In this document: piece after piece, positions 1 through 24,735 of the stretch
Layout of the letters: the number at the start of each line of letters is the position of its first letter
How positions within the stretch are numbered: position 1 is the stretch's first letter
Source: Massariosphaeria phaeospora
Lineage: Eukaryota > Ascomycota > Dothideomycetes > Pleosporales
Direction of reading: 5' to 3'
Assembly: GCA_011032825.1 (NCBI GenBank)
Contig: JAADJZ010000008.1
Location: 1 to 64,000 of the forward strand
DNA: 64,000 nucleotides
Notes under the pieces: generated by a model
What the model was told of the DNA's origin: nothing
The model's input: only the letters and a program-made list of their open reading frames with translations
The model's database searches: none
Position numbers and translations under genes: made by a program

Positions 1-1618
1 GCCTACTACAAATAGCTATACTTCTATCAACGTACGCCTTAGTTTTATTGCTAGTATATTAATAATATTCTCGTTTTTAACTTATCTAACGAGGCTTCTG
101 AAGCTATCTGCGTTTTAGGCTTGCAAATCTTGTAAACGCACTTTGCTTACGAACTTTCGTTTCTCGACGTACGCTTCTACACGCACTTCGAGTTAGCAGC
201 AGTGTATTTCGCACTTTTCAACAAAGTGCTAAACCACTATTAATACCTCTTATAGGCAAGCTTTTACTTTTTTTTAGTTAAAAAAGGGCTAGTTAAAGGC
301 GAGCTCTGCTAGATCCGCGCAATATGCTACAAGAAAACATACTTTCTAACATAAAAAGCGACATTTATGTTGAAGCTCTAAGCGCGCGGCTAGCTAAAAC
401 AAGTGTTACACTCTTAGAGACAACAGGTCCAATAGCAATTGTACTTCTTTAGTTTTAGGCTAAAAACTAGAGTTGCACGTAATGCAATTATTGCCGTCTC
501 TAAATATAACTTTGTGTAGAACTAAGTTTCTTTCTTCGCTATCTAGAACGACATGCGATCGAAATAAGTTTGAGCTAGACTTTCGAACCTACTGTACCTA
601 CCGCAGTGTATCGTTGCCAAAAAACGGACTAGATTCATGTAGAATCTTGTTCGGGCGGTAAATCAAAGCATCTTTTACAAGGAAATCAAAGAAACTGACA
701 TTAAAAAGCTGTTAGTAAATGTGTTTTTTTTAGATACTAGATTATTCTACTCTTTGCTCTAAGCTTGTTTAGTTATCTAGGTTGCAGCTTTAGCGCATAG
801 CATTCTTGTTTCTTTTTCCTTCTTTGCATGCGCTTTCTCTAGAGAAAGTGCGTCGCGAAAGTTGAGTTAGGTTTAAAATGTAAGACTTGTAAAACCTGTT
901 GCTGCCTTTGCTAGTTTCACTGCTTCGCATGCTTTTTCGAGTATAATACTTCCCCTAGGGGGAGAGCGTCGCGGAGTAGCGTTGCCTTTGCAATTCAAGA
1001 ACTTTAGAAAACGGCAAAACGACTGCTGCGCTTGTAAAGTACTTAAATAGACAAATAAAAGTGCTAGCAACGGCGCGAACGCTTGAAAATCTAGAGAAAC
1101 ACTCGCGCAACGGACAACTACGCGTGAAAACAACTTGTTTCAAAAGAAAGCTGCTAGCTTGTAGGAAAAGTCTGTTAGTAATATAAAAGTATTGTTTCGA
1201 TCTAGGTCAACTATTGCGGTTTTTGGAAATAGAAGATTTGGGTAAGAGCCTAGCGCTAAGACGCTAACTCTAACTCAAACCTTAAGTAACCCTAGTACCT
1301 ACTAATTACTAACAAACTTTTAGAGCTGCTTATTCTACAGCACAACGTTTTGCATCGTTTTAGCTTCTCTACTCGCACTTAGCTTTTGCAAAGGCTAGGC
1401 AGCAGCTAGAAGCTCAAACTTCCGGCAGCGCAGCAAGTAAACAACTTGAAAGAACTTCCCCTTAATTTTAATGTATATAAACAGCTTTTTTTTTATTTCT
1501 AATAAGTTTCTTTTTGTAGATACAACAAGAAACGAAAAGTGTCTTGCGAACTAAGGCATTTCGACGACTCTTCTTTGCAGAAAGACTAAATCTAATCGAA
1601 TTATTTTACTTTACATAC
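1..1618. other. AT-rich decayed DNA, no gene recognised
   Basis: No coding region could be supported on either strand. Short open frames (for example about 473-661 plus and 873-1133 minus) show no recognisable motif. The base composition matches the RIP-decayed transposons that follow. A CTAACTCTAACTC-like stretch near 1264 resembles the satellite at 1619. It may be an old transposon too decayed to name. Confidence 0.5.
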
Positions 1619-1705
1619 AACTCTAACTCTAACTCTAACTTCTAACTCTAACTCTAACTCTAACTCTAACTCTAACTCTAACTCTAACTCTAACTCTAAA
1701 CTCTA
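1619..1705. repeat. (CTCTAA)n hexamer satellite
   Basis: About 13 tandem copies of a CTCTAA hexamer, with one 1-base slip near 1640 and a slip at the right edge. The unit is one base from the C-strand telomere hexamer CCCTAA used by most filamentous fungi. It also resembles the TAACTCTAACTCAACTT-like subterminal motifs of the hAT elements in this window (J and MITEs K1-K3). It could be a decayed interstitial telomere tract or an expansion of a hAT subterminal repeat; the sequence does not decide. Confidence 0.85.
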
Positions 1706-2054
1706 GCAATACTAGTTCTAGCTAGGTAAATTATAGTAGATCCGAAAGCGCTAGATTAAGGCTTTAAAATAGTCTAAAAATTATCTAGATAGCTATACTA
1801 CTAGTAAAGTTATTAAGCTTTAAACGTAAAGATTTAATGCTAAGCAATTTTAAGCTGCTTGGTAGTGTAGGCTGCTCGGTAGTGCTTTACGTTATACAGA
1901 GTATGTTAAATTTGTATTAAAATTAATTTTGTTTTTATAATGTTATTCTATATTTAGAGGTAACTAAACTGTTTTTGAAGTGTATACGGTTATTCGGACT
2001 ACACAATAAAGCTAGTTTCGGCGCTAGAAGCGTTTTGGCTAACTAAACAAGCAT
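1706..2054. other. decayed DNA with a scrap related to the right-end hAT element
   Basis: No gene is visible. Around 1965-2015 a GTGTATACGG-centred stretch, preceded by an AAACTGTTTTTGAA-like run, resembles 62284-62330, just 5' of hAT pseudogene S. This suggests the A-D nest landed in or next to a remnant of the same family. The match is short and interrupted. Confidence 0.35.
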
Positions 2055-2420
2055 TACTATGTCCGTGCACTTAATGCTCGCGTTTAGTTAATGCCTGCGC
2101 AACACTATAATTGCGATTTTGAACATAAAGCTGTATAGCTACATACAATTGCTATAAGTATATAATTTTATAGTAGAATAGTAAATACAGTGCGCTCTAC
2201 AGTTTGGCTTATTCAAATTTCTTTGAAAGATTGATAGAGCGACTACGGCGTGTAGTAGGCGCTAGAGTAGGCACTAGCGTTGCAACAGAAGCTGCAGCAG
2301 CACTAACACGTTTCTAGCGCTTGTTGTTATGTAGAGAAGCGCGTAAAGCTTTTTTCTTTTTCTTTTGAAATAATTGTATAGCTTTCTTAGCGTTGCGAGC
2401 TGCTTTTTAGGCAGCTTGCT

Positions 2421-4534
2421 TACCGTGTCCGTGCACTTAATGCACAGATTCAGCTAATGCACGCCGAACACCAAATACGTTAAAACTCTTTAATTTTCAA
2501 CACGCAACAACTCTACTACTATGAACCCTATTTAGGCTGCAATTGATGAAATCGAATTGCGAAAGCTAGAAGAAGATTTCTTATATACAGAAATTGCTAC
2601 TAGACGTAGTGTCAATCGCAGTATACTATTGCGAAGACACTAAAGTGTTACAGCGTTACGTGCAGCTACTGCAAACAATTAACAAAAGCTTAACCTACAG
2701 CAAGAGTAGGAGCTTGTGCGATATATTAAAGAACTTACAAAGAAACATATACTTTCTACAAAAGAAATAATACAAAATTTTGCATTAACAATAGCTAAAG
2801 AGCTAGTTAGCAAAAGCTAGGTTACCTGCTTTATCAACTAACACAGCATTTATTTTATATTACAATAGACAGTCGGCATAGACAGCAATTGCTACAAAGC
2901 TAATTTAGAGAATAAATATTGTTTCTACTTTTATTTTCTACACAGCAAGATTGAGCAATATTAGATAAATCCTCGTTATACCTACAATATAGACGAGAAA
3001 AGCTTTCTAATCGGCATTATTAGTAGATTAAAAAGAATATTTAGTAAACGAATGTAGAAGAAAAAGAAAGTTAGAGCATTAATTTAAGATAGAAATTGTG
3101 CATAGATTACGCTTCTAGCATGTATATGCGCTAATAGATCTGCTTTGCTTCTAAGCTTTATCTATAAAGCTGCTAACAAAGGCATTTAATCAAGCTAGGT
3201 AGACAATATCTAAGCAGAAGAACACCTAGTTTTTATTACTTTATTACTATCTAGCTAGACGAACAACGATATTGGACTTGCTTAGTTTAAGCAGGTGTTT
3301 AATTGCTGTACAAAAGAGAAAACCTAACGATTCTATCGACTTCTAATCCTAGATGGCTACGGATTCTATATTACTATAGATTTTATTAACTACTGTAATT
3401 AAAACAAGATTCTCTTTGCTATTTTACTTTTTTATTTGACTTATACGCTTTAGCTACTCGATGTAGCAATGTTCAAGCCTCTATCAACTGCCTACTTAGT
3501 AGAACTATCAAACTACTTTTAAACAAGCTAAGGTTTCTTTTCTATTACTAAAGGCGATTTTTTTCTACTATTCTAGAAAGCGTAGGAGACCTCCTTTAAA
3601 GAATTAACAATTTTTAGCTCTTTTAGAGCAACAGGCATATTACTTCTTAATTCTAATCCTATCCTTAATAGATTTACCAAAACTTAAGAATTAAAAGAAA
3701 ACTTCTTATTATTACTTAGCGATTATAATTGGAGAAATATAAATAGGCTTGTACGCTTTGTAGCAAGTAATTAGAGTAGTAAAAATACACAGAAGCTTCG
3801 TCAATTGCTCTACTACTAATCTATTTAAAATAACTTACTTAAGCATAAGATAGATAGTCTTAAGCAGGCTCTATCTATTAAGAAAAAGCGTAAAAAGAAA
3901 AGCAAAGCTCTAGACTTTCAACAGCGCTAGGAGTATTATAGTAGAGCTATTTTCTAGTTACCAAGGAAGGTAAAGGAAGCACGTGTTCGTTAGTCAATCA
4001 AAGAGCAGGAAAATTAGAAGCAGCAACTTTAAAAAGCAAAGACAGCAGAGCTAAGGAAAGCAGCTAAGCTGTACAAAAAGAAAATTGCAAAGAAAAAGCG
4101 TGTAGCGCGGGAAGCAGCTAAGGTAGCGAAAAAAAAAGAGAAAGCAGAAAAAGCAGCAGAACGCGCTTGCTAGAAGAAAGCTCGCGACGCTACAAAAGCT
4201 CTACAATTTTTTTAAAAAAGTAAGAGAAAAGCTTTGCAGCTATTTCTACAGAGCAAAAAGCGTTACAAACGTAGCGTTAATACTAGAAATGCTGCGAAGG
4301 CCTTAGAGAGCGTATCTGCTGCCCTAGCTATTCTAACGCGTCGCGGCCGCAACGTTAAGCTTCTAGATAAATATAAGTAGCACAAGTTAATCGCAAGTAT
4401 CAATATAGTACTCTTCTAGAATATTTTGTAATAATATTAATTGTAGGTAGCTCTACAGCTTTATTTCTAATAGAGCGTTTATAGTGTTCGGCGTGCATTA
4501 GCTGAATCCGTGCATTGAGTGCACGGACACGGTA
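2421..4534 (+). mobile_element. Fot1/pogo-like element B, nested in A
   Basis: A complete 2.1-kb element with 51-bp inverted repeats at 2421-2471 and 4484-4534, ending in TACCGTGTCCGTGCACT, with TA at both ends. It lies inside the C-terminal coding part of element A in opposite orientation. The A sequence rejoins cleanly across it (GCAGCTTGCT to GTAGTCTTGT). Confidence 0.93.
2521..4431 (+). pseudogene. element B transposase, RIP-decayed
   Basis: The ATG at 2521 begins MNPI, then a stop from a Gln codon, then AAIDEIE, matching the better preserved element D start at 8838. An N-terminal HTH and a CENP-B-like HTH (around 2690-2790) are followed by a DDE domain and a Lys/Ala-rich tail (about 3840-4330). 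There are dozens of in-frame TAG/TAA codons at positions where D has Gln or Trp. No frameshift is needed over most of its length, so decay was mainly by C-to-T and G-to-A change. Confidence 0.88.
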
Positions 4535-5589
4535 GTAGTCTTGTTAGCTTTCTCTCTTTTCTTCGCTGCTTTCGCTGCCTCTCGAGCTACACGCTTCTCC
4601 TCTGCGATCTTTTGCTTGTATAACTTATTAGCCTGTTGTAGCTCTCTTATCTTAGCCTTTTAGAGTTGCTGCTGTTGTTTTTCCTATTAGGTTACTGTCT
4701 TGCGATACCGCGCTTCTCTTATCTTGCGCAGCGACTAGAAAGTAGCTTCGCCGTGGTACTCCTACTGTTGCTGCAAATTGAGAAGCTTGCTTTTTTTGTT
4801 ATAGCGTTTCTTAACCTGTAGAGCTTCTCTTAGGCCGGTAATTTCAGTGCGAAGAAGCTCATTTTGTATAGAAATGTAGTAGAGCGAGCTGCGCAGCTTA
4901 CGGGCGTCGTAACTACTCTAATCTCGCACTAAAGAGCGTACAAGGCGGTCTATTTTGCGCCAATCCTCTGCGCTAAGCGCTGAAGTAGAGCTTTCGCGAG
5001 ATAGGGCATCGTAGGCGAATCTCTTAAGAATTACCGCGCTGTCAAGCGGCGCTATCCCGGTGTGCTTGAAAGCGCTAAGTATTGTCTTTTCTACAAAGGA
5101 AAAGCGCCAAGCTCGCTAGAAAAGCTCAAAGAAGTTGCTTTTCTTTACTGCAAGCTGGCCTTGGGCGCGGTAGAGGTAATCTAATAGCTCTTTTGCGTAC
5201 GCGGTAGAGAGAGGCTTAAAGAGCGCTACATCGAGCAGCTGCAATGTTTAGGTAGAGTGTAGTAAAAATACACACAGCAGAATCTTGTGTCGATCGCAGT
5301 AGTTAATAAAACTACTTGTTATGTGCGAGCTATGGCTGTTAAGGATAAGTAAGCGCTAGCTTAAGCGAGTCTTTACTTTTGTTTCGCGATTAAAAACCTG
5401 TTTAAGCTATGCTAAGCCGATATCGTCGTTCGTCTAGCCTAATAGAGATGAGGTAATAAAAATCTAATACTCGCTAGCTTGTATACAGTGTTGGCGCACG
5501 TGCCAACCGAAACGCGTAACGATTGCTTTATCGAGATTATTACTACTACAAACATGAGGATGTAACAACAGCAGCAATAGCTATTATTG

Positions 5590-7863
5590 CAAGACCTTTT
5601 AGTAGATTGATACATTGATTATAATAAACAATTTGTACTACTTAGATTATGTGTATCTAGTTGGCAGCTTGACAGCGCAGCCGCTGCGAGCAACTTTGGC
5701 TAGAACAGCAGGTACGACTTTAGCAGGTGCTGCAGCAGCACTAGAACGCTTCTGTTGCTTTGCCTTTAGAGTAGTTGTAGCCAAAGCTTTGCGCTTAGCT
5801 GTTTAAGAAGTTTGAATAGGTTTCTAAGTGTTTTGGAGCGCTTTTCGAGCTGCCGCAGAAGCTGCCTTTTCTGCTTTCTCTTTCTTACGCTTCTTTCGCT
5901 TTGCTGCAGTTGCTACACGCTTTTTCTCTTTAAGCTTTTTGTTGTATAAAGCGTTAGCAGCTTGGAGCTGCTTTATCTAAGCTTTTTGAAGTTTCTCTTT
6001 TTTAGCTAGTTGCTTGTTCGTGCGCTTACGTGCTTTACTTTTAGCCATCTTACGCGGTAACTAGAACACAGCTCTACTATAATACTTCTTTTTCTGCTGC
6101 AAGTTAAAGACTTTGCCTTTTTTATTGTGCTTTTTTTTAGTAGTAAGAGCCTTGCGTAGGCTCTTATTCTTATTAGTAAAAAGCTCGTTTTGGTTGGCTA
6201 AGTAGTAGATCATGGAGAACACTTGTTTGAGATTAAACAACAACGTATTAGCTGCTGCTCGTAAGAGACGATCGGCTTTACGCTAGGTAGAGCTAGGCTT
6301 GTTTGCTAGCTTGTTTAGAAGCTTTGGCGGAAAGCGCTTTATAACTTTTTCTTGATTTATAGGCAGCGTTCTGCATGGATAGAAATTCTATCTAGCCTAT
6401 TCCGCTTACCTTCGCTTCTAGACTTTGGATTTTCTCTAAGGTAGCTAAGCTTATAGATTTGTAATACAATTAGCTACTTTAGGTTTAATAAATCGTTAGG
6501 CCAAGGCGCGAAGGGGTTTAGTTTCTAAGATTAGTAGCAGATAAGGCGCAGCTAGCCTACATCTTCAATGCGTTATCGATTTATTAATATTTCCTCTTCA
6601 ACCGCTTATAGATAGCTAACCTATACAAGTTACTATAAGCGGGATATTCAACTTAGCGCCTATAGAAATCTCCGAAGGTTGCTTATAAGCAAATAGAAAA
6701 TTTCTTTTCTATCTATGCCGAACGCTGTTTATAGGCTATATACTAGTAGCAGCAAAAAACTGCAAGATTGTTTGCTTCTTGAAGCTTGCCTGCTAGGCGT
6801 CCTAGAACAACAAAAAGAAGTTGCTTTTCTTGATTGGAACTAGCTCTTGGCTGCGCTAGGTGTGTTCTGCAAGCTTTTTAGAGTAAGCTTTACTTAGCGG
6901 CTCGAAGCAAACTACATCTAGCGGCTGCAGCGTATAAGTACTATAAAGTAGAAATACAGCAACATAGATCTTGTAAGTAAAGCAGTAGTATAAAAATTCC
7001 TTCGTAAAGTAGCTGCTGTAGCCGTTGAGAATAAGTAAGCGCTAGTTTTTTTTATGCCGCGCTTTTTTCTTCGTGCAGCGGTCGAAAACCTGCTCTAACT
7101 AGGCTAATCCTACGTTATTATTCGTCTATCTAGATAGTGTTGAAGCTACAAAAACGTCGTGTACGCTAGGCTTGATATTAGCTACCTATAACAATTGTAG
7201 AGTACAGTTTGCAAACTCGTAGATTAGGCCAAGCAGCAGCGCAGTTCTATTAGCGCAAACTGCAGCGACAGTTGTTATCTAGGTACGTAAGCTATCTTAG
7301 AGGGCTGCAGTAACTTTACGCTTCTCTTATTGGGCCCTTGTGAAGGTCCTTTTCAATCGTCCGATTACACCTATTATAAAGCCTTTTTCGTCTATATTGT
7401 AGCTATTCTCGGGCAGAATCTTATGCTCCTCTATCTTGCTGTGTAGCAGGTCAAAGTATAGCTTGTACTTGATATATAAGTCGGCTGTGTGGCGCGTAGC
7501 GTCCATGGCGGTGGTGTATTTTGAGATGAGCTCGTCCTTGTGGCGGTGCTTGAAGCGCGTTACCTAGGCCAAAGAAACGCGTTCGTGAGCTATCGTAGAG
7601 GCAAAATTTTGTATCATGGCTCGAGTAGGTGGTAGCCCACGCTTAGTCAAGTCTCTAATGTAGAGTACAAGCTCCTCCTCTTGTTGTAGCGTAAGTTTCT
7701 TCTAGTCGAAGATTTTAGCTGTTCTTGAGCCCTGACGGCCTTGGTGTCTTCGCGCCAACGTAACTCGATCTACGCCAAACTAGTTAGCATACTTCTAGTA
7801 TACAAGATTATCTCCTAGAGCGCGCGATTTAATTGCTGCAATTGCTTCTTCAACTGGGGTCAT
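5590..7863 (-). pseudogene. element C transposase, RIP-decayed, split by MITE T
   Basis: It begins MTPVEEAIAAIKSRALGDN at 7863, then an HTH (YQKYANQFGVDRVTLARRHQ) and the CENP-B-type segment (EEELVLYIRDLTKRGLPPTR). The first catalytic block is YNIDEKGFIIG; the second is seen as LILNGYSSYF, with Asp changed to Asn; the third is LQPLDVVCFEPL. MITE T breaks the frame at 6727-6364, after which coding resumes. The tail is Lys-rich. The N-terminal 900 bases carry few stops, so this copy seems younger than A. Confidence 0.88.
6364..6727. mobile_element. MITE T (hAT-type, 364 bp), inserted in element C
   Basis: A non-coding insert with terminal inverted repeats CAGCGTTCTGCATGGATAGA (left) and CAGCGTTCGGCATAGATAGA (right, reverse complement). 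It is flanked by perfect 8-bp duplications TTTATAGG at 6356-6363 and 6728-6735. The 8-bp duplication and CAG start are hAT hallmarks. Its ends differ from J, so another hAT transposase must have moved it. Confidence 0.9.
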
Positions 7864-12811: not shown

Positions 12812-14194
12812 TTTTAATAAAAGTATTAATTAGTATAAATAGAAGTTAGAAGTATAGTTAAAAGTACGCTAGCGAATAGGTAAAGAGTACCTATCGTTGG
12901 GTAACGTAGATTCCTAGCGAGTCGCTTACCTAAGCGAGTTGCTTACTTGCGCTAAGCTTTTTTTCTACTACCTACTTCTTTCTTTCTACTACTTTCTCTC
13001 TAGCACCTAGTATAGGTTAAGATAACTTAAATTACTTAGAATTAACTGCTGCATCTAACCTACACGTGCGCTTATTGTGCCTTAGCTCGCCGCAGCGTCC
13101 ACAGCGTCTTGAAAGCTAGCTGCTCTAATTACTAGCATTACTACGAGCTCTTTTCTTCGCTTTTTTTTTATTACTGCGCGCTTCAAACGCCTTAAGGGCT
13201 GTTAAGCGCACGCTTTTTTTAACTGTAAAAGTACTTTCTTGCTGCACACGCTTTCTCTTGTGCAATCTTCGTTGCGAGAAAGCTTCGTTGGCAGCTTAGA
13301 GTGCCCGTGCGCTACAGTGCCCGTGCGCTAGATAAGCCGGTACAGCCGATAAGCTACCTCAACTAAAATTAGCAACCGCGAAAATAAGGCTGTACAGCTA
13401 CATATCAATTTAACTATTATAAAAATTTTTAGTGTATTACTATATAGAGGCTTGCGCATCTTTTGCACTATTTGAATTTTTGTAGTACCTTGATTTAGCG
13501 GCTTCGCGTAGTGGTTTTGGGTGGAAGCTGCGGTAGTAGAGATGCAGCATTAACACTACTTGCAGCACCTACAGCACGACGCTTTTTTGTAAATTTTGCT
13601 ACAGCGCTGCGTAAAACTGCTTGCTTGCTTTTGTTTAGTGTATCGCGAGATTTTTGTAAAGTTGCAGCGTTGCGTTGCTGCTTTTTAAGCGCGCGCGCAG
13701 CAGCTAGCTTTGCAGCTTTCGCTTTCTTACGCTAGCGAATAGGTAGGAAGTACCTATTAATAGGTATAGGTTAGGTTATAAGTCGCATAGACTTTAGGTT
13801 AAAGTTAAGTTATAGTTACTCTAGCGTAGGTAGAGGTTAGGTTAGAGTTATTAAAGCGTTAGGTTATAGTTTAGTTAGAGTAATCAAAGCTTGAAGTTAG
13901 AGTTGAGTTAAAGGTTACATCTAAGTTATAGAGTTATGTGTTAGCTTAGAAAGTTGCTAAGATTTAGAAAGTTATTACAGCTAGTTATTACATTTAAGAA
14001 CGCGCAAATTGTATTTACAAAGTTCTGTTATTACAGCTACTATTCACGTACAAAAACACAAGTAGAGTAAAAAAAGTTGTATTACTACAGATATTAATTA
14101 CAGTAGCGTAGAAGTCGAGCGCGCTTCCGTAGCAGAAGTAGCGAATTCTTTTTTTCTAAATTATTATCTAACAAAGTTATTCTTAATTGTAAAG

Positions 14195-14310
14195 GCCTAG
14201 ATGTAGGCCTAGATGTAAGCCTAGATAACAAGCTAAGTATAAGCCCAAATGTTAGCCTAGGTATTAACTCAAATAACGGGCTAAGTGTAGGCGTAGATGT
14301 AGGCCTAGAA
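14195..14310. repeat. imperfect 12-bp tandem repeat (GGCCTAGATGTA)
   Basis: Several imperfect copies of a GGCCTAGATGTA-like unit lie just 3' of the conserved hAT dimerisation region. On the minus strand they read as a Thr/Ser/Arg/Pro-rich stretch. It may be low-complexity tail coding sequence of the transposase or non-coding subterminal repeats. Confidence 0.6.
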
Positions 14311-14319
14311 GTAGAGTTT

Positions 14320-16965
14320 ACATACTGCGCTCAAAAGTTAAGTAAGTTCTTAACTTCGTTACATAGTAGTTCTTTATTATCTGCTTTTGCAAACTAAAAA
14401 ACGCTGTCCTGTCCTTTCTCTTAAGCAATATAGTTTTTTAATATTATAATTCGCCGAATTGTCTAGGCAGCAAGTTGGTGCTTTCTATTGCTAATAACAT
14501 TCTTAGCAACGTTAAATTCGCGCTCGACTTCAACCTAGGCAATTTGTACTGCAAGTACATTTTTTGCAACTTGTAATAAGCGTAGATACGTTTTTTCATT
14601 TACTTGCTACTATTTAAAGATATTAAAAAAGGCACTAGCGCGTACGCAGGCAATGCTTAGATAAGCCTCCTTTTCTTAGCAAGTTAAGCTCTTTTTTTTT
14701 CTATTTCGTCTAGGTTAACAGATGAAAAACTGCTTGGCAGCAACTAGAGCAAAAGCTTTAGTTTCTAAAACTATTTACTACTTTAGGGTCTAGTTGTACA
14801 GAACGGAGAAATAGAAGTAAAAGCAAAGCGAGTATTATCGTTATAGCAATCGAAGTAATCAAGAAACTCTTTGCAGTAGGTGTGCTTATTTTGATTATTC
14901 TAAGTTTCGTCCTAAACGCGCAGTTAGCATATAACTGTAATAAGTAACTGTAATAACTATACCTCGTACGCCGTAAGCTTTTAGCTAGAGTCTAGAATAG
15001 TAGCACAATTAAATAAAAACTCTTGTTTATCGCTAGTCTTTTTATAATACTTGCTAAGTTTAGCTTTTTTTTTATCTGCAGCAGCTCGTACAACTGTAGG
15101 CTACTTAAAAGTATCTCGATTTTCTATGTCGTTGTTAAGTTCGTCCTGCATACTATTTAGAAAGTTGAAAAAACAGTTGTACATAAGCTAGATATACTAG
15201 ACTTGTAGCCTATAGTTTTTACTTAAAAAGTTTGTTGCGTCTTTAAAGTTTTTAAGCATATTAGTAATTAACTTTAAGTAGTGCTATTTGTCTAGTGTTA
15301 ATTTTAGTTGCTTAAAGTCGCAGAAGTTTACTTTTACTATATTCTTATTATCTAGGATACTGCTTGCACTAATTGTTATCTTAAGTGCAATCTCTTTTAC
15401 TAGCTATTTGTTAATAAATCTTTGAATCTTAAGTGCGCGCTCGCACATATTGTAGGTTAAATTCTATTGTGTTTTAACGTCGCGAATAACAGACATCTGT
15501 TGTTTTAGTAGCAAGTGTAGTTGCGTAGCGATAAACCGCTTGTATTGTTAAAACAACGAATTAATTGCTATGCAGATAGCTCGAAGCTAGGTGTATGTTA
15601 GGCTGTAATAAAAGTATGTAATAACGCACTATATACCTTGCAAAAAGAGTTTAGAACAAAGATATTCGCTTGCACGTCGCTTAAATAGCGTCTCTGTAGT
15701 ATTTCTCTTAGTTTAACGTTAGCACCTGCTAATGCTACAAGCTTAAAGTGTAAAATAATATTTTAAACAACAAGATTAATAATGTAAGCAAGACACAGAA
15801 TTGAGTTTTTTAATAAGCTCTAAAGTATGTCCTTTGCTTCTAGTTGCTATTCAATAACACGACTAAGCGTTTTGTTTTTTTTAGCATTATTTGCAGTAAT
15901 TGCTAGAAAGCGTAATTTAATGCTAGTGTCTAAGAGTACTTGCAGTATATTAGCAGCTGCAGCAGCACTAGTATGTCTTTCGCGTAGAGAAATAAAATCT
16001 AGCAACTTCTTTTAAAGCTGCTAGTTGCAGTTAACGTAGTATTCTTTAACTGCAAGGAAACTAAGATAATTAGAAGCAAACTACCTATCTATCGCAATTG
16101 AGATCTTGGTTAACTAGCTAATGTTATTAAGAAGTAATGCTTTAGCCTTTTCAAATCGTTTATAGAACATTTCCTAGAATTTGAATTAGCTAATACTTGG
16201 AATATTAGGTCGAAGAAATTAAAGAAATTGCTAGAATAAGAGCCGCTTAATTGTTTAAAAAAACTAGTTGCTATATATAACTACTCGTACTAGTTCTCGT
16301 TCAAAGGCCTAGGTTAAATATAGTAGTACAATAGTAGTAAATTAAAGTTAACGTAGTGCTAGCTGTAGACGAGGTTGAGAGTAAACAAAAGCAAGCGTTC
16401 TTTAGTAGGTTCTAGATTCAAGGTAGTTAAGTAAGTGTTTAGTTTCAATAGTTTTAACTGCTAGGTGCTAAAAAGCAAAGCCGCAATTATAGCAGAATAC
16501 GTAGAAGTAGCTATTACTAGAATTAGCAGCTTTTTCAAACTGTAGCTATACCTAACTAGTGCGTATAGCAAAGTTCTATCGCGGATTTGCTATTTCTAGG
16601 TCTAGAGCCTACTTAGTAGAACTCTACTACATTTTTTACGTAGTTACTACTGCCTCTTGTTCTGTATCATTCTTAATATGCGTAAAAGAATATTTTACTA
16701 GATGTAGTTTATTTCTTTTTCTCTCTCAAACGAATTGCTTAGCGTTGAATTTAAATAAACGAACAAGTAGCGAAAGTTCTGCTATGTTTATAACAAAAGG
16801 TATAGTACAAAAGCGCAGGTACTGTAATAATAAACTGTAATAATTAGTGTTAGAGTAGACTAAAGATAGAGAATAAGTACATTGCCAAAGAAAAACACGC
16901 AGATTGTTAAAGAAAAACAGAACATGCCTTTTTGCTTGCGAAATATTGCTAACGTCCAAGCGCAA
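14320..16965 (-). pseudogene. hAT transposase of element J, RIP-decayed, with at least one intron
   Basis: The central RNase-H-like region reads KLSKYYKKT, then NCATILDSS, KLTAYE. An intron (14962-14912: GTATAG donor, GCTAAC branch, TTTAG acceptor) joins KLTAYE to DETWNNQNKHTYCKEF. The C-terminal hAT dimerisation block is clear: VAKNVLAVQIA, VEVEREFNVAKNVISNRKHQ, TIRRIIILKNYIA. Upstream LITNMLKNFKDATNFLS fits the helical insertion domain. A BED zinc finger was not found. Start and stop positions are approximate. Stops fall at Gln/Trp codons. Confidence 0.85.
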
Positions 16966-19013
16966 AGGCTAAGGCAGTAATGCAACCGAGATTAGAGCTA
17001 GAATTAAAGCTGCAGTAGTAGCGCTTTAATTTTACAGTTCTAATTAGGTTATACTTGCTAATTTGTTAATCGCAATGTTATGCACGTTTTAGGCCGCGTT
17101 ATAGATAGTAGATACTAGCTGTGTTTATGCTAGCAACGTTTTAATTTACATAGAAAGTAGAGAGCTTTAGGTCTGCGCTTTTTTATAAGCGTTACTATCG
17201 TTAGAGAAACTTTTCTAATCTAAATACTCTACTAACTTAGTTTGCTCTACTACTTTAGTTTGCTCTACTATCTTAGTTTGCTCTACTACTTTATCTACTA
17301 CCTTATTCTACTCTTTATTTTTATTTTTATTCTCAACTTTTTCTTTATTTTCACTAGAGGACTCGTTTGCTTCTGCTAACGCTTTTCTTTACTAATTTTC
17401 TGTTTTATATTTGTCTTTACACTTATTGTAGAACGCATTAATTTCTAAGTTGCTACTTGCTTCTTCCTTACACTTATTAATTGTAGGCGCTGAAATATAC
17501 GAGCTGTTGATATTTTTATAAGCATTGTCGCCGTTAACGCGTAGTTCGAAAGAGAGCGTAGGCTTGCGTAGGCTAGTGCAGTTAGTATAGGTATGTAATA
17601 AACTGCTGTAATAACTTACTTCTAGTCTTTAGCAGTTACTAGTGTTAGATTCTCTAAAGTCAACGTCTTTACAAACTTTTGCTAATCTATTTTAGCTTTC
17701 TCGTTCTTAAACGAATTATTCTTTAACTTAGCTAATTTGTCTAAGTAGATATGTCGCATAATTCTATCAGTAGCCTCGCTAGCGCCAAATATTCGCGACA
17801 TTAGCTAATTCTTAATTTTTCTTTTGTTTTTTAGTGCTTTGGCGATTTGTTTAAGAATGTTTCTGTACTGTTAGAAGTTAACATTGTAATAAATACGAGC
17901 CTACTTTTTATAGGCAAGGCCAAGTTTTGCTTAAAGCTACTCAACTACGTATTGTAAGTACAATAACGTAATAAACTAATATAATAACTTACTACTTTTT
18001 TGTGCGCAGTAGCGTTGCTTATCTAAAAGCTTAAGTTTAGTTGCTAACTGCTTTTTCTAGTCGTGCGCAGACAACGCAGTAAACTTTTTCTTCGCCTTAA
18101 GCTTCTTTTTAAGCTAGTATTTTGCTTGCTAATCTCTTGCACTAGCATTTGCAATAGCTTTTCCTTTAGCACTTAAGTAAGCTGTTTGATTTCTCTAAGC
18201 AGTCGCGCAGGCAGTATTGCTTAATTAACTCTTAGACAGTAGCTTGTAATGTGTAGAGCGCTTTTTTTGTAATTCAACGCAACCGCGATTTGCTAGTACG
18301 CTAAGAAATTCGTGCTTTTTAAACTTAAAGCTCTAGGTCTGTTAGCAGATGCTGTAATAAACTTTTATAATAATTACATTTGTAAGCGCTTTTTACTTTG
18401 CTAGCTTAAACCTAGTTAGAACCTCAATCTCGTAAGGCAGAAGCAACTTATTATTAAGCTCGTAGTCTATCTCGTCGTTAAGCTTCTGCTTAATTGCAGC
18501 TATCGTATTTGTAATAAATGTAGGTAATAATGAAGCTAGTTGTAGTACGTAGGTAGGTAGAGGCAGAAAGTAAAGTAGTAGAAAGTTAAGTAGCGAATTT
18601 ACAAGCTAAATTCTGTGTAGAGTAGCTTGTGCGCTGCTGCAAAAGCTGCAGCCTTAGCTAGCGCTTCGCTGCTAGCTACTTAAAACACGCACCTTTGCTG
18701 CAGCCTCTGCAGCTTCCTTACCTGCCGTAATTATTACAAATAATTATTACAACTTTCTACTCTCTACACTACACCTATTACGCATTAATTCTTTTGCAAT
18801 AGCCCGCACCAAGCAAACTAACTGCTACTACTTTGCTACTAGCGGCAAGGTTCCGCGAAAGCTTTTCGCAGCAAAAGCAGCTCGCAAATCTAGCAATCTG
18901 TACAAGAACAAGAAGAAACTAACAACAAGTAGTGTAAAAAAGCTTTACTGCTAAAAGCAAAGAAGTAAGTTATTACAGTAGTTAATTGCAGCTTTGTTTC
19001 TAACAACATGCAG
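14912..19013. other. family of related short introns in element J
   Basis: Introns on the minus strand at 14912-14962 (transposase), 17573-17619, 17945-17992 and 18333-18377 (second ORF), and on the plus strand at 18965-19013 (histone-like gene), are 45-51 nt long. They share a 5' half close to GTAAGTTATTACAG, followed by an AGTTTATTACA-like block. Most have CTAAC-type branch sites and AG acceptors. Further TTATTACA motifs lie at about 13970, 14035, 16820, 17890, 18510, 18730 and 19470, where no intron could be proved. Confidence 0.65.
17170..18540 (-). pseudogene. second ORF of hAT element J, lysine-rich, function unknown
   Basis: A minus-strand frame runs across three GTAAGT-type introns. 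Recognisable stretches include NDEIDYELNNKLLLPYEIEV, KKHEFLSVLANRG, KKLKAKKKFTALSAHDWKKQ (Trp inferred from TAG), LMSRIFGASEATDRIMRHIY and INAFYNKCKDKYKTENQ, then a Lys/Glu-rich low-complexity end with VEQTK repeats. I do not recognise a family; the INAFYNKCKDKYK part faintly recalls Myb/SANT-like helices but that is weak. It lies between the transposase and the histone-like gene, transcribed like the transposase. Ends are approximate. Confidence 0.6.
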
Positions 19014-19351
19014 CTGTTGCGTTGCGCAAAATTTAACGATACTAGAAATTAACTAAGCTCTTTATGCGCAAACTGCTATTTAGTCGGCTAGTTCGCAAGA
19101 TTGCGCAAGAGTTTAAGCCTAATCTGCGCTTTCAAGCTAGTGCAATTGAAGCTATACAAGAAGTAACGAAAGCTTTTCTAATTAGCATCTTCGAAAGTAT
19201 AGCTTTCTACCTGTTGCTAGGTGCAAAGCTAACTTTAACAAATACCAATATTAACGCTATACACGCGAAATGAGTAACGATTAACACAAGAAACATAAAT
19301 CTAGCACAAAGATACTACAAGAAGTACAAGAAGAGTTTGCAGCAAATGTAA
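18799..19351 (+). pseudogene. histone H3-like gene inside hAT element J, three exons, RIP-decayed
   Basis: Exon 1 (18799-18964) reads ARTKQT, then a divergent NCYYFATSGK, then PRK, AAKAARKS and SVKK, tracking the H3 tail; its start codon is ATA where ATG is expected. Intron 1 is 18965-19013. Exon 2 (19014-19196) gives [50 protein letters not shown]: the alpha-N to alpha-2 histone fold, with canonical H3 loop-1 length. Intron 2 is 19197-19241, with a CAA acceptor where CAG is expected. Exon 3 gives [10 protein letters not shown], a TGA in place of Arg, VTI, and a basic extension. Phases agree exactly; about 152 codons against 136 for H3. Decay stops all fit C-to-T/G-to-A. The K9 ARKS context is not conserved. 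Retained introns argue against a processed retrocopy. Loop-1 length argues against CENP-A. Confidence 0.88.
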
Positions 19352-21490
19352 AAGCTAAAGTCTAGTTGCTACTTGTTCTAGCGGTATAAGGCTATAATAA
19401 TTTTGAATTTTTTAGCAATACCTAGCGTAGACGTTGCTTTGTACTTAGCTATTAAAATGCAACTAATTCTACGCTGTAATAACAATTTGTAATAAACTTA
19501 AGCAACTTGTACTTTGCTAACGTCGAAATACAACATGTAAACTCTAAATATAACAACTTAACTATAACCTAACTATAACCTAGAGCCTGTGCGAGATAAC
19601 TCAACTTTAACCTAAAGTCTATGCAACTCAACTCAACTATAACTCTATACTAGCGTTGAAAGATTAGGTATATAAGTAGAGTTGAGTTAGAGTTATAAAA
19701 AAAGCAACTCAACTTTAACTCAACTTCTACCTATTCGCTAGCCTACGCTTTTTGCTCTTTATTAGCACGCTCTTTTGCAATTTGTCGCAGCGCTTTTGCT
19801 TTCTTTGCTATCTGCTTTTTGTATAGTGTAGCTGCAGCTTTAAGCTTTCTTTAGTAAGTTTTTTAGAGTTTTCTCTACTTCTTTTTGTGTTGTTTGACTA
19901 TCTTGCGCACTTAAGCTTTTTAGATTTTGCAAGAACTTTATAGTATAGCGCTGCTATAGTACTCCTTGCGCTGCTGTAAGTCTAGAACTTTACTTTTCTT
20001 CTTATGCTTTCGTTTAGTAGTAAGTGCTACGCAAAAGCTATTGTTTTTGTAGTAAAGTAGCTTGTTTTAAACCTATAGAGAGTGTAATGTCTTAGCAAAG
20101 CGTTTAGCTTTATCTTTTGCCTTATTTAGGACCGCAGCGTTTAGAATTTTTCGTATATTATTCTAACTATTTCTATTACTAAGCTCTTGCAGTTCTATAT
20201 TTTTATCTTAATTCAAAGTAGTAGTGTTAAAGCGTTTGAGTATAACTTTTGCATTCATCGGCTACACGCTTGTAGCTTTAAAACTCTTTTGTATAGTTTT
20301 TCTCTTTATTGTAGTACCCCACGCTAACTAGAATATTAGAAAAAAGTTGCTTTTCTTAACGCCAATAAGCCTTTGCAATTAGTGTAGGTAGCAGTTGAGT
20401 TCTTGCGAGTAGTAATTCGAAAAAAGAGAAAACAATACTACATTAAGCAGCTGTAAAGTGTAAGTTAAATGAGAAAAAAAAACAGCTAGTAGAATTTTAT
20501 TAGCGTTGCAAAAGTCTATAAACTTGCGCGTAAAGTAGCTACTATAGCTATTAACAAAAAAGAAGCGCTATTGCTAGCGCGCTTTTTGCTTTGTGTAGCG
20601 CTCGAACAGCTGCTTAAGCTAGAGTAATTCGATATCGTTATTTGTTCATTCTAAAGTTGAGTTGGCTATAAATACTTAGTGTTTTCTAGCTTTAACGTTG
20701 TTAACCTAGCTTAATTGCAAGCTAGCTTTTCTTTCGTAGATAAAAGCAGGCGGCAGCGCTTTACTATTAGCGCAAACACAAGCTAAAAGCGTAATCTATT
20801 CTCTATTGCTATCTTGTATAGCCGCTGTACGCAGTTTTGCCTACTAAACTGCTTTAAAAAAGACGCGTTTTGAGCGTGTAGTAATGCTAACAAAAAAGCT
20901 TTTTTTATTTATATTATAGGTGTTGCGCGCTTTAACGTCGTACTTTTGCATTTTTCTATGCAGTAGTTAAAAGTATAGGTTGTATTTCTTATGTAAGTTA
21001 GCTTAGTAACGATTGCAATTAATTTTAGCGCTTTATTTGGTAGTAAGCTTAGCTTTATAGCGATGTAGAAAGCGCGAAACCTACGCATGTAAAGCCTTCT
21101 GTTTTGCAACTGCGCTAGCGAAATTTTGTACTATTTCTTTTGTTAGTAGCAAGCTTTGCTTTGTGCATTTTTTTATGTACTTTACAAGTTTCTGCTTTTG
21201 TTGTAAGTTAAGTAGTTGCCGTTGTTTTAATGCAGCTGTATAAAACTGCGTTTTGCTTTTATGCCGTTGCAACAGTGTAGTGCAATTAACACTAAACTAT
21301 TGCGCAACTTTGTAGTAAAAAAAAGATGTGCTAGCTTTACGTAATTTAATTGCTTTAATTGCAGCTTTAATTAAGTTCATGTTAGTAGAAATGCAACGCG
21401 TTAAAGTTGAGATAATGCATATGTTTTGATGCGAGGTAGCTTATTAGCTGTACTAGCTTATTCGACGCATAAGTACTGTACACGAGCTAT

Positions 21491-23580
21491 TACAGTACAC
21501 GAGCTACTTCTTCTAAAATTAGCGCGCGCAAAAATAAAGCTGTAGAGCTACATACAAATTGTATTATTATAAGATTTTCTAGTGTAGTACTATATAAAGC
21601 CTTGCGCAGCTTTTGTACTACTTAAATTTTTGTAGTACCTTAATTTAGCGGCCGCGCGTAGTAGTTTTAGGTAGAAGCAATAGCGGCGGAGGTGCAGCAT
21701 TAACACTACTTTTAGCACCTACAACACAACGCTTTTTTGTAAATTTTAAAGCAGCGCTTTGTGAGGCTTTTTGCTTGCTCTTGTTTAGTGTATCGCGAGA
21801 TTTTTGTGAAGTTGCAGCGTTGCGTTGCTGCTTTTTGAGCGCGCGCGCTGCGGCTAGTTCTGCAGCTCTTGCTTTACGCTCCTTCGCTGCGCGCTCCCTC
21901 GCGATTTGCCGCAGCGCCTTTGCTTTTTTTGCTATCTTTTTCTTGTATAGTGTAGCTGCAGCTTTGAGCTCGCAATTGTGAGTTTTTTAGAGTTTTTCTT
22001 GCTTTTTTTCGCGCTGTCTGACTGTCTTGCGCGCACGAGCTTCTCGAACTTTGCGAGAACTCTATAGTATAGCACCGCTGTAAAACTTCTCGCGCTGCTG
22101 CAAGTTAAAAACTTTACTTTTCTTCTTATGCTTCTGTTTGGTAGTGATCGCGGCGCGCAAGCCTTCGTTTTTGTAGTAAAAGAACTCGTTCTGAACCTGT
22201 AGAGAGTGTAATGCAGCAGCAACGCGTTTGCCTTTAGCTTTTCCTTTATCCGTAACCGCAGCGTCCAATTTTTTTTGCAGGTTTTTTTAACTATTTCTAT
22301 TACTTAGCTCTTGTAGTTCTGTATTTTTATCTTGATTAGAGGTAGTAGTGTTAAAGCGTTTTAGTATAACTTTCGCATCTATCGGCTACACGCTTGTAGC
22401 TTGAAAACTTTTTAAAATAAGCTTCGGCCTTATTGTACTGCCCCACGCTAACCAAAATATTAGAAAAAAGTTGCTTTTCTTGACGCTAATAAGCTCTTGC
22501 GATTAGTGTAGATAGCAGTTGAGTTTTTAAGTATAGTGCTTTAAAAGCGGTAAAAACATTACCACATCAAGCAGCTGTAAAGTGTAAGTTAAATAAAAAA
22601 AAAAAACAGCAAAAAGAATCTTTTTAGCGTTGCAGTAGTTGATAAACTTGCGCGTAATGTAGCTGCCGTAGCTGTTAACAATAAAGAAGCGCTATTGCCA
22701 ACGCGCTTTCGTTGCAGTATAGCGCTTAAACAACTGCTTAAGCTATGCTAATTCAATATCGTTATTCGTCTATTCTAAAGTTGAGTTAGTAACAAAAACC
22801 TTGTGTTTTCTAGCTTTAATAGAGTTAACCTAGCTCGATTGCAACCTAGCTTTTCTTTCGTAGATAAAAGCAAGCGGTAGTAAGCTCTTATTGCTACAAA
22901 CGCAAGCTAGAAGCGTAATCTATTTTCTATTGCTATCTTGTATAGCTGCCGTACGCAGTTTTGCTAGCTAGATTGCTTTAGAAAAGACGCGTTTAGTGCG
23001 TGTAGTTATGCCAACGAAAAAGCTTTTTTTATCTATATTGTAGGTATTGCCTAGCTCTACATCGTACTCTCGCATTTTCTTATAAAGTAGTTGAAAGTAT
23101 AGGTTGTATTTTTTATATAAATTAGCTTAGTAACGATTGCAATTAAGCCTAGCGCTTTATTTAACTGTAAGCTTATTCTTGTGTTAATGCAAAAAGCGCG
23201 AAACCTACGCATCTAAAGCTTTTTATTTTGCAACTGCACTTGCGAAATTTTGTACTATTTTTTGTGTAAGTAGCAAGCTTTGCTTAGTGCATTTTTCTAT
23301 GTATATAACGAGTTCTGCTTTTTGTTGTAAGTTAAGTAATTGCTAGTGTTTATAGTACTTCGTTTGAGACTGCGATGTGCTTTAGTGTCTTCGCAACAGC
23401 GTCGTGCAATTAACGCCAAACTGTTTGGCAACTTAGCAGTACGAGAAAGATGCGCTAGGTTTGCGCAAGTTAATTGCTTTAATTGCAGCGTTGATTAGAT
23501 TCATATTAGTAGAGTAACGACGTGTTAAAGTTGAAATAGATTATATGTTTTGAAGTTAGAGTAGCTTGTGTACTGTAATA
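21491..23580 (-). mobile_element. Fot1/pogo-like element I2, middle tandem copy
   Basis: It lies head-to-tail between I1 and I3. The left end (21491) keeps only a shortened terminal repeat (TACAGTACACGAGCTAC, then a jump to internal TTCTAAAATTAGC). The right end (about 23560-23580) is also a shortened repeat ending in TA. Length is about 2.09 kb, with no nested insertion, so it serves as the uninterrupted reference for I1 and I3. Confidence 0.82.
21567..23504 (-). pseudogene. element I2 transposase, RIP-decayed
   Basis: The start is at 23504 (MNLINAAIKAIKLRKPSASF); the HTH, CENP-B-type segment (VIYIEKCTKQSLLLTQK), DDE domain with YNIDKKSFFVGITTRTKRVF, and a Lys/Arg-rich tail follow to about 21567. 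The first catalytic Asp survives here. Open stretches at 22268-21932 are pieces of the tail. Several stops at Gln/Trp codons and probable small frame breaks make it inactive. Confidence 0.84.
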
Positions 23581-24735
23581 GCTCGCGTACAGTGCTCGTG
23601 CGCTAAATAAGCCGGTACAGCCGATAAGCTACCTCAACTAAAATTAGCAACTGCGAAAATAAAGCTGTACAGCTACATATTAATTTAACTATTATAAGAT
23701 TTTTTAGTGTATTACTATATAGAGGCTTGCGCATTTTTTGCACTATTTAAATTTTTGTAGTACCTTGATTTAGCGGCCTTGCGTAGTAGTTTTGAGTAGA
23801 AGCTGCAGTAGTAGAGATGTAGCATTAACACTACTTGCAGCACCTACGGCACGACGCTTTTTTGTAAATTTTGCTACAGCGCTGCGTAAAGCTGCTCGCT
23901 TGCTTTTGTTTAGTGTATCGCGAGATTTTTGTAAAGTTGCAGCGTTGCGTTGCTACTTTTTAAGCGCGCGCGCAGCGGCTAGCTTTGCAGCCTTCGCTTT
24001 TTGCTTTTTATTAGCACGCTCCTTTGCAATTTGTCGCAGCGCTTTTGCTTTCTTTGCTATCTGCTTTTTGTATAGTGTAGCTGCAGCTTTGAGCTCTCTT
24101 TAGTAAGTTTTCTAGAGTTTTCTTTGCTTTTTTTTGTGTTGTTTAACTATTTTGCGCACTTAAGCTTTTTGGATCTTGCAAAGACTCTATAGTACAGCGC
24201 TGCTATAGTACTTCTTGCGCTGCTATAAGTCTAGAACTTTACTTTTTTTCTTATGCTTTCGTTTAGTAGTAAGTGCTGCGCAAAGGCTATTGTTTTTGTA
24301 GTAAAGTAGCTCGTTTTGAACCTGTAGAGAGTGTAATGTACTAGCAAAGCGTTTAGCTTTATCTTTTGCCTTATCTAGAACCGCAGCGTCTAGAATTTTT
24401 TGTATATTATTTCAACTATTTCTATTACTAAGCTCTTGCAGTTCTATATTCTTATCTTAATTTAAAGTAGTAGTGTTAAAGCGTTTGAGTATAACCTTTG
24501 CATCTATTAGCTACACGCTTGTAGCTTCAAAACTCTTTTGTATAGTTTCTTTTCTTATTGTAGTACCCTACGCTAACTAGAATATTAGAAAAAAGTTGCT
24601 TTTCTTAACGCTAATAAGCTTTTGCGATTGGTGTAGGTAGCAGTTGAGTTCTTGCAAGTAGTAATTCGAAAAAGAAAAAAACAATACTACATCAAGCAGC
24701 TGTAAAGTGTAAGTTAAATAAAAAAAAAAAACAGC

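Follow-up and report, generated by a model that had tools for sequence, protein, structure and literature searches.

Why a DNA transposon should carry the gene of a core histone, and whether such a gene does anything for the element, are the questions raised by a locus of the Pleosporales fungus Massariosphaeria phaeospora. The window, i.e., the whole stretch of 64,000 nucleotides that was analysed (contig JAADJZ010000008.1 of assembly GCA_011032825.1, positions 1 to 64,000 of the forward strand), contains a hAT element, here called J, with a damaged histone H3-like gene (H3L) close to its right end. The initial annotation knew of no description of core histones as transposon cargo. Such descriptions exist: hATs with an H3-like gene entered the literature with Manning et al. 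(2013; PMC3538342) and again with Dhillon et al. (2019; PMC6710886), and an H3-homologous repeat in 2010 (Hane and Oliver, 2010; PMC3017866). So far, these elements appear in print mainly as carriers of a captured gene that drifts or dies. The reading favoured here, probable though held with limited confidence, is that J represents a hAT family with three genes, inactivated here by RIP, and that H3L has long worked for the element and is not a passive passenger. With an intact, intron-bearing and K9-less H3 beside a conserved acidic protein, the cargo becomes a candidate for a function of the element, and whether a parasite can escape heterochromatin by its own histone becomes directly testable in a laboratory fungus.

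Element J occupies positions 13728..19745 (6,018 bp; given, like the duplications and the empty site below, without strand), as defined by its terminal inverted repeats, its target site duplication and a full-length alignment to a sister copy, L031. Its terminal sequences are TACGCTAGCGAATAGG and CCTATTCGCTAGCCTA, and an inverted GCTAGCGAATAGG at both ends constitutes the short terminal inverted repeats typical of hATs. The 8-bp target site duplication of this superfamily is also present: CGCTTTCT on the left (13720..13727) and, with one transition, CGCTTTTT on the right (19746..19753). The element is hosted by a 2.1-kb tandem repeat, another unit of which contains the empty site CGCTTTTT at 23995..24002. 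Segments of this repeat (unit 2,124-2,125 bp) are found at 13341-13640, 21491-21790 and 23616-23915, and further ones at 19747-20046, 21871-22170 and 23996-24295. The order of the genes in J is transposase (14094..16785, minus strand; introns 15587-15636 and 14912-14962), central gene (17167..18503, minus strand; introns 18333-18377, 17945-17992 and 17573-17619) and, nearest the right end, H3L on the plus strand, the first two being RIP-damaged genes delimited by alignment to L031.

The sister copy L031 (the same copy as L003) is the least damaged of the J copies. It extends over 6,001 bp (positions 1389-7389 of locus L031, on contig C23) between exact duplications of AATGTACC. This intact copy has three genes that are open after splicing: the transposase gene with two introns (863 aa), the central gene with three (392 aa) and H3L with two (152 aa). 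The introns of the transposase and central genes are a reading of the L031 sequence, and public-protein support concerns the splicing of H3L. The L031 transposase contains the C-terminal dimerisation domain of hATs (Pfam Dimer_Tnp_hAT, E 4e-16, 59 bits against a cut-off of 21.4). The spliced H3L matches Pfam Histone with an E of 3.1e-36 and is 100% identical to the public protein P0002, 'histone H3 [Massariosphaeria phaeospora]', which independently supports the exon model. The transposon is presumably autonomous.

Compared with L031, the window copy has 822 substitutions, comprising 429 C>T, 388 G>A, 4 A>G and 1 C>A. Since 817 of them are C-to-T or G-to-A, it was RIP that destroyed this copy; the C>T changes affect CpA most (175/379, against 112/460 in CpT, 76/296 in CpC and 66/286 in CpG), which is the RIP signature. 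H3L, introns included, differs from the sister by 31 C>T, 35 G>A and 3 A>G changes, so that the RIP-type inactivation put forward in the initial annotation stands. The lesions amount to four stops, the change of ATG to ATA, and the change of the second 3′ splice site from AG to AA. For the family, 26 of the about 40 copies were aligned (the window copy and the 25 further J-type loci among L001-L030), and 25 of them are broken, with 3 to 7 internal stops each, L003 having none. At an A>G site in the K27 context, L031 has T (TRKS), unlike 22 of the 26 aligned copies, which suggests that L031 itself is probably not wholly RIP-free.

H3L (18799..19351, plus strand) is separated from the right end of J by 394 bp and has, as noted initially, three exons; they lie at 18799-18964, 19014-19196 and 19242-19351. 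Even the broken window copy gives a Pfam Histone match (E 3.9e-13) in a six-frame genome scan, and its identification as a histone H3-like gene was borne out by the Pfam result and by the identity of the spliced sister to P0002. Intron 1 (18965..19013, plus strand, 49 nt) has a CTAAC branch-like site and GT..AG borders kept in 26/26 aligned copies, and splits codon T45 (H3 numbering). Intron 2 (19197..19241, plus strand, 45 nt) splits codon D106; its GT is present in 26/26 copies and its 3′ AG in 11, the other 15, including the window copy, having AA, which we take as probable damage. The length of intron 2 in L031, 45 nt, is a multiple of three and contains no stops, so that an unspliced intron 2 would appear as a 15-aa insertion. 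The introns of the host H3 lie in codons R8 and Q120. That the gene has introns is thus correct, while the conclusion previously drawn from it, that the gene was not captured as a processed cDNA, was too strong: the introns do not alone exclude transcript capture, because their positions differ from those of the host H3 and later gain is possible.

The 42.08-Mb genome (51 contigs) has 46 matches to PF00125. Of these, 39 fall on H3L DNA of J copies, and six belong to five other loci: the canonical H3 (L001), CENP-A (L002, with two of the matches), H2A (L013) and a CBF/NF-Y-like protein (L007), all four named by sequence reading, and an open frame of 119 aa at C38:36708; the match at C2:1333531 contains six stops. 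The H3L DNA matches number 43, with three copies split in two, which indicates about 40 J copies. A DNA search with the transposase segment gave 42 matches, some of them only pieces. Of these transposase matches, 28 span 900 bp or more, and at 24 of the 28 H3L follows downstream on the same strand, at a spacing of 3,035-3,096 bp in 18 cases and of 3.4-6.4 kb in six; at the other four, a 2.1-kb stretch at the expected place of H3L (L050-L053) is without element DNA, and we take these copies as having probably been cut or interrupted. At the right ends, where the best 40 of 82 candidates were scored and the counts are hence lower bounds, H3L is found within 700 bp on the same strand in 36 of 40; two more have H3L at about 2 kb, and two are without it (one contig end and one fragment). 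No clear case of a full-length J sibling without H3L exists among these 40 right ends. A separate insertion of H3 into J was also considered and rejected, given the continuous alignment to the sister and the presence of H3L near 36 of the 40 right ends. Insertion boundaries of its own, which the initial annotation had set against its claim of cargo, were not seen. The linkage to transposase and right ends, together with this absence of own boundaries, indicates that H3L belongs to the element; an H3-like gene between terminal inverted repeats and amplified with the element is the trait of H3-carrying hATs.

The protein encoded by H3L is not a canonical H3. It is identical to the host H3 at 96 of 136 aa (65 of 92 in the fold), and the intact copy keeps the lysines K4, K14, K18, K23, K27, K36 and K37. 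In the alignment with host H3, K9 is replaced by H and accompanied by a 2-aa insertion, another insertion of 8 aa lies between K27 and K36, KPHRY has become KPYCW, and the C terminus is different and longer. The loss of the K9 context and the retention of those of K4 and K27, reported initially, were thereby confirmed. The encoded protein has no K9, and a lysine codon at this position is found in 0 of the 26 aligned copies. Since, in addition, the AAC CGC CAC CAC of L031 is not derivable from AAG by RIP, the loss of K9 precedes the amplification of the family.

Canonical histone H3 is near-invariant, K9 included, and that of the host hardly changes. Between H3L and host H3, dN is 0.24 and dS 1.81 (Nei-Gojobori), values from a single pair near saturation, with a GC3 of 0.79 vs 0.57, and in which the share of the H3L branch is not separable. 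Given the near-invariance of the host protein, the 40 replacements should mostly have arisen in the line leading to H3L. Four-fold sites with a conserved amino acid differ at 31 of 54 positions. The frame and the histone fold are intact while synonymous sites are near saturation, which we read as purifying selection that probably acted on H3L over a long time, and which suggests that H3L is a working gene of the element.

The alternative that retains most weight, possible though rather unlikely, is passive transduplication, in which a hAT acquired an H3 sequence of the host, as transcript or gene, and multiplied it as a passenger from which it gained nothing. This is the view in print for Pseudocercospora and its relatives (PMC6710886), and passengers are known from hATs and other DNA transposons (PMC3538342). 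The death of 25 of the 26 aligned copies is in keeping with it. However, it leaves unexplained the introns at positions other than those of host H3, the absence of internal stops and the preserved fold of the intact H3L despite the 31 changed four-fold sites, and the lack of a clear full-length sibling without the gene among the 40 scored right ends. A second alternative, judged improbable, is that H3L goes back to a host gene for a diverged H3 variant, which had introns of its own and was only recently captured from genomic DNA, the constraint being then the host's. The introns, the open frame and a long branch in the tree of H3 folds would suit such an origin. Against it, 39 of the 46 PF00125 matches are J-borne H3L, and those read among the remainder are H3, CENP-A, H2A and a CBF/NF-Y-like protein. 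In addition, all candidates from a search of public proteins with the H3L tail (3/3) come from M. phaeospora and none from another species, which confines the observation on K9 to this host. In a search with the whole H3L protein, ordinary H3s dominate among the matches listed (the best 120 of 7,991).

CENP-A has a longer loop 1 and no ARTKQT tail. That H3L, as a diverged H3 with a changed tail, is a CENP-A homologue which steers insertion to centromeres or works there is hardly credible and was rejected, since its loop 1 is of H3 length (EIAQEFKPDLRF), unlike that of the host CENP-A, its tail starts with ARTKQT, and in the fold it is closer to host H3 (72% identity) than to host CENP-A (55%). 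The placement between H3 and CENP-A that had been suggested as a check was achieved by these features and not by the tree of H3 folds, in which no fork is supported, H3L and CENP-A both sit on long branches, and several public rows are fused or rearranged gene models.

The interpretation of H3L as a working element gene has to consider its neighbour. The only relative of the central protein found in a protein search is P0123 of Bipolaris sorokiniana (38% identity over 96% of the query), which is listed with seven contigs. Both proteins have a body of balanced charge and an acidic end, with 55 D/E and 5 K/R in the last 132 residues of the central protein and 38 D/E and 3 K/R in the last 87 of P0123; the conservation of the central protein in Bipolaris thus extends to the acidic tail. 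A GRPT stretch common to both is, we assume, AT-hook-like. The L031 central protein gave no Pfam match above the cut-off and no match to PDB sequences up to an E of 1, and a single-sequence structure model of P0123 consists mostly of helices at low confidence (mean pLDDT 62.6, pTM 0.23). One source names P0123 after the AGC-kinase C-terminal domain, though no Pfam domain is listed there. A chaperone or loading role of the central protein is a guess.

How could a K9-less histone serve the element? H3K9 methylation marks RIPed repeats in Neurospora. The genome of the host has one Pre-SET match, presumably that of an H3K9 methyltransferase; its DNA methylase matches number four, of which two are neighbours. 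In the proposed mechanism, H3L would pair with host H4 and enter nucleosomes on or near the element, possibly loaded or targeted with the help of the central protein, and, being K9-less, would be unable to receive the methyl mark at H3K9 by which repeats in fungi are designated for heterochromatin. We infer that H3L may enter nucleosomes, that it may do so at the element and that the element would benefit. Escape from H3K9 silencing through H3L would be plausible; the mode of action taken as a whole, nucleosome entry at the element with escape from H3K9 marking, is advanced tentatively. The stronger version, that a transposon-encoded K9-less H3, perhaps with its acidic partner, replaces host H3 on the element and blocks H3K9-methyl heterochromatin, is speculative and would rank as rather doubtful. 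RIP, which acts on DNA repeats, killed the window copy all the same; because the J family is heavily RIPed, any protection by H3L would be at best partial. Against a functional reading also counts that only one J copy is intact, with no sign of its moving, and, for Pyrenophora, the statement that the H3Ls 'may have undergone drift' (Manning et al., 2013; PMC3538342).

Transposon genes thought to act against silencing have been described elsewhere, such as the TET/JBP dioxygenases of fungal DNA transposons and the SET genes of HarbingerS (Kojima, 2025; PMC12730594) or the VANDAL anti-silencing proteins of plants (Hosaka et al., 2017, PMC5735166; Kojima, 2025, PMC12730594). As described there, these cargoes resemble H3L in being related to chromatin or DNA modification and in residing in DNA transposons; they are, however, enzymes or regulators, whereas H3L is a subunit of the nucleosome. 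If true, the mechanism would thus be counter-silencing by histone substitution rather than by an enzyme. Neither a loss of K9 in, nor an anti-silencing role of, transposon-borne H3 was found among the matches listed in the literature search, nor was the element of this host, and the words lysine and H3K9 are absent from the main texts, supplements aside, of Manning et al. (2013; PMC3538342) and Dhillon et al. (2019; PMC6710886).

The kinship of J to the H3-carrying hATs of Pyrenophora and the Mycosphaerellaceae is set by published descriptions and not by sequences. The multi-copy hAT of Pyrenophora tritici-repentis, also of the Pleosporales, has the same layout, with a transposase, a central ORF whose function is unknown, and an H3-like gene with tail insertions (Manning et al., 2013; PMC3538342). 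It measures about 5.6 kb (PMC3538342), compared with the 6,018 bp of J. In that species, 23 of 26 copies appear functional, a figure given by Dhillon et al. (PMC6710886), and RIP appears inefficient or lacking (PMC6710886), whereas the J family is RIPed and has one intact copy among about 40. The Pyrenophora H3 is called a captured transcript by Dhillon et al. (2019; PMC6710886), in contrast to an H3L with two introns; a figure legend of Manning et al. (2013; PMC3538342) marks introns on ESTs. Dhillon et al. (2019; PMC6710886) described the second system, in Pseudocercospora fijiensis and, besides it, in five Mycosphaerellaceae. According to this source, the P. fijiensis hAT shares with J the terminal inverted repeats, the 8-bp target site duplication, the H3-like cargo, the RIP-killed copies and a canonical H3 kept by the host. 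It differs in its size of about 9.5 kb and its one or two H3 copies (vs 6.0 kb and one H3L), in a dimerisation domain reported as not found (vs found in the J family), and in premature stops in all extra H3 copies (vs one intact J copy) (PMC6710886). Its H3 insert is reported to be without introns, from which transcript capture was inferred (PMC6710886); J has no such intron-less insert, its H3L having two introns. The second H3 copy of P. fijiensis is described with a 16-aa 'insertion' (PMC6710886), to be compared with the in-frame 45-nt intron 2 of H3L, and we suspect that this insertion may also be an intron. Introns at non-host positions speak against the 'captured transcript' account for other species, and the in-frame 45-nt intron offers a simple check on both the reported 'insertion' and that claim. 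The repeat R25 of Stagonospora nodorum, also RIP-damaged, has weak homology to DNA transposons and to histone H3 (Hane and Oliver, 2010; PMC3017866), to which J adds the anatomy of an element. What the present analysis may add to print are the two introns at non-host positions, the in-frame 45-nt intron 2, the absence of K9 in 26/26 aligned copies and an open frame that looks maintained over a long time.

A further feature of J is a paired motif, TTATCACA-N5-TTATCACA, identified in L031 by a relaxed pattern with a 13-nt period and placed on the window from there; some of the pairs deviate from the motif in one letter or more. The left subterminal pair is at 13972..13992 (plus strand), and the others are at 14936-14956, 15604-15624, 16823-16843, 17594-17614, 17967-17987, 18353-18373, 18731-18751 and 19475-19495. 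Five of the nine pairs lie in introns (in five of the seven introns of the element), four outside genes and none in exons. The pairs in introns had suggested an introner-like, mobile origin of the introns, which was rejected, as the TTATCACA pairs occur also between genes and in short repeats elsewhere in the genome that share the left end of J. We would rather guess that the motif may serve the element in cis, perhaps as a binding site of an element protein. The exact motif has 35 matches in the genome, five of them in the J copies L031 and L035.

Some additional observations concern the remains of the family. A little-damaged left-end fragment, L054 (G000:C1:630300-631000), has the first 201 bases of the element, 95% identical to L031, followed by non-matching DNA. 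Two pairs of H3L matches have identical scores, G000:C28:2409-2876 with C50:1646803-1647270 and G000:C18:14620-15164 with C14:738035-738579, and each perhaps reflects a duplicated stretch of assembly or genome. Finally, a TTATCACATTTACTTATCACA-type pair occurs in the same flanking sequence in seven of eight stretches inspected (L055-L061), the eighth, L062, having no match to J. All five of those seven repeats that were compared share the left end of J at 84-87% identity, and the L055-L061 repeats are likely, from this similarity, to be short non-autonomous relatives of J.
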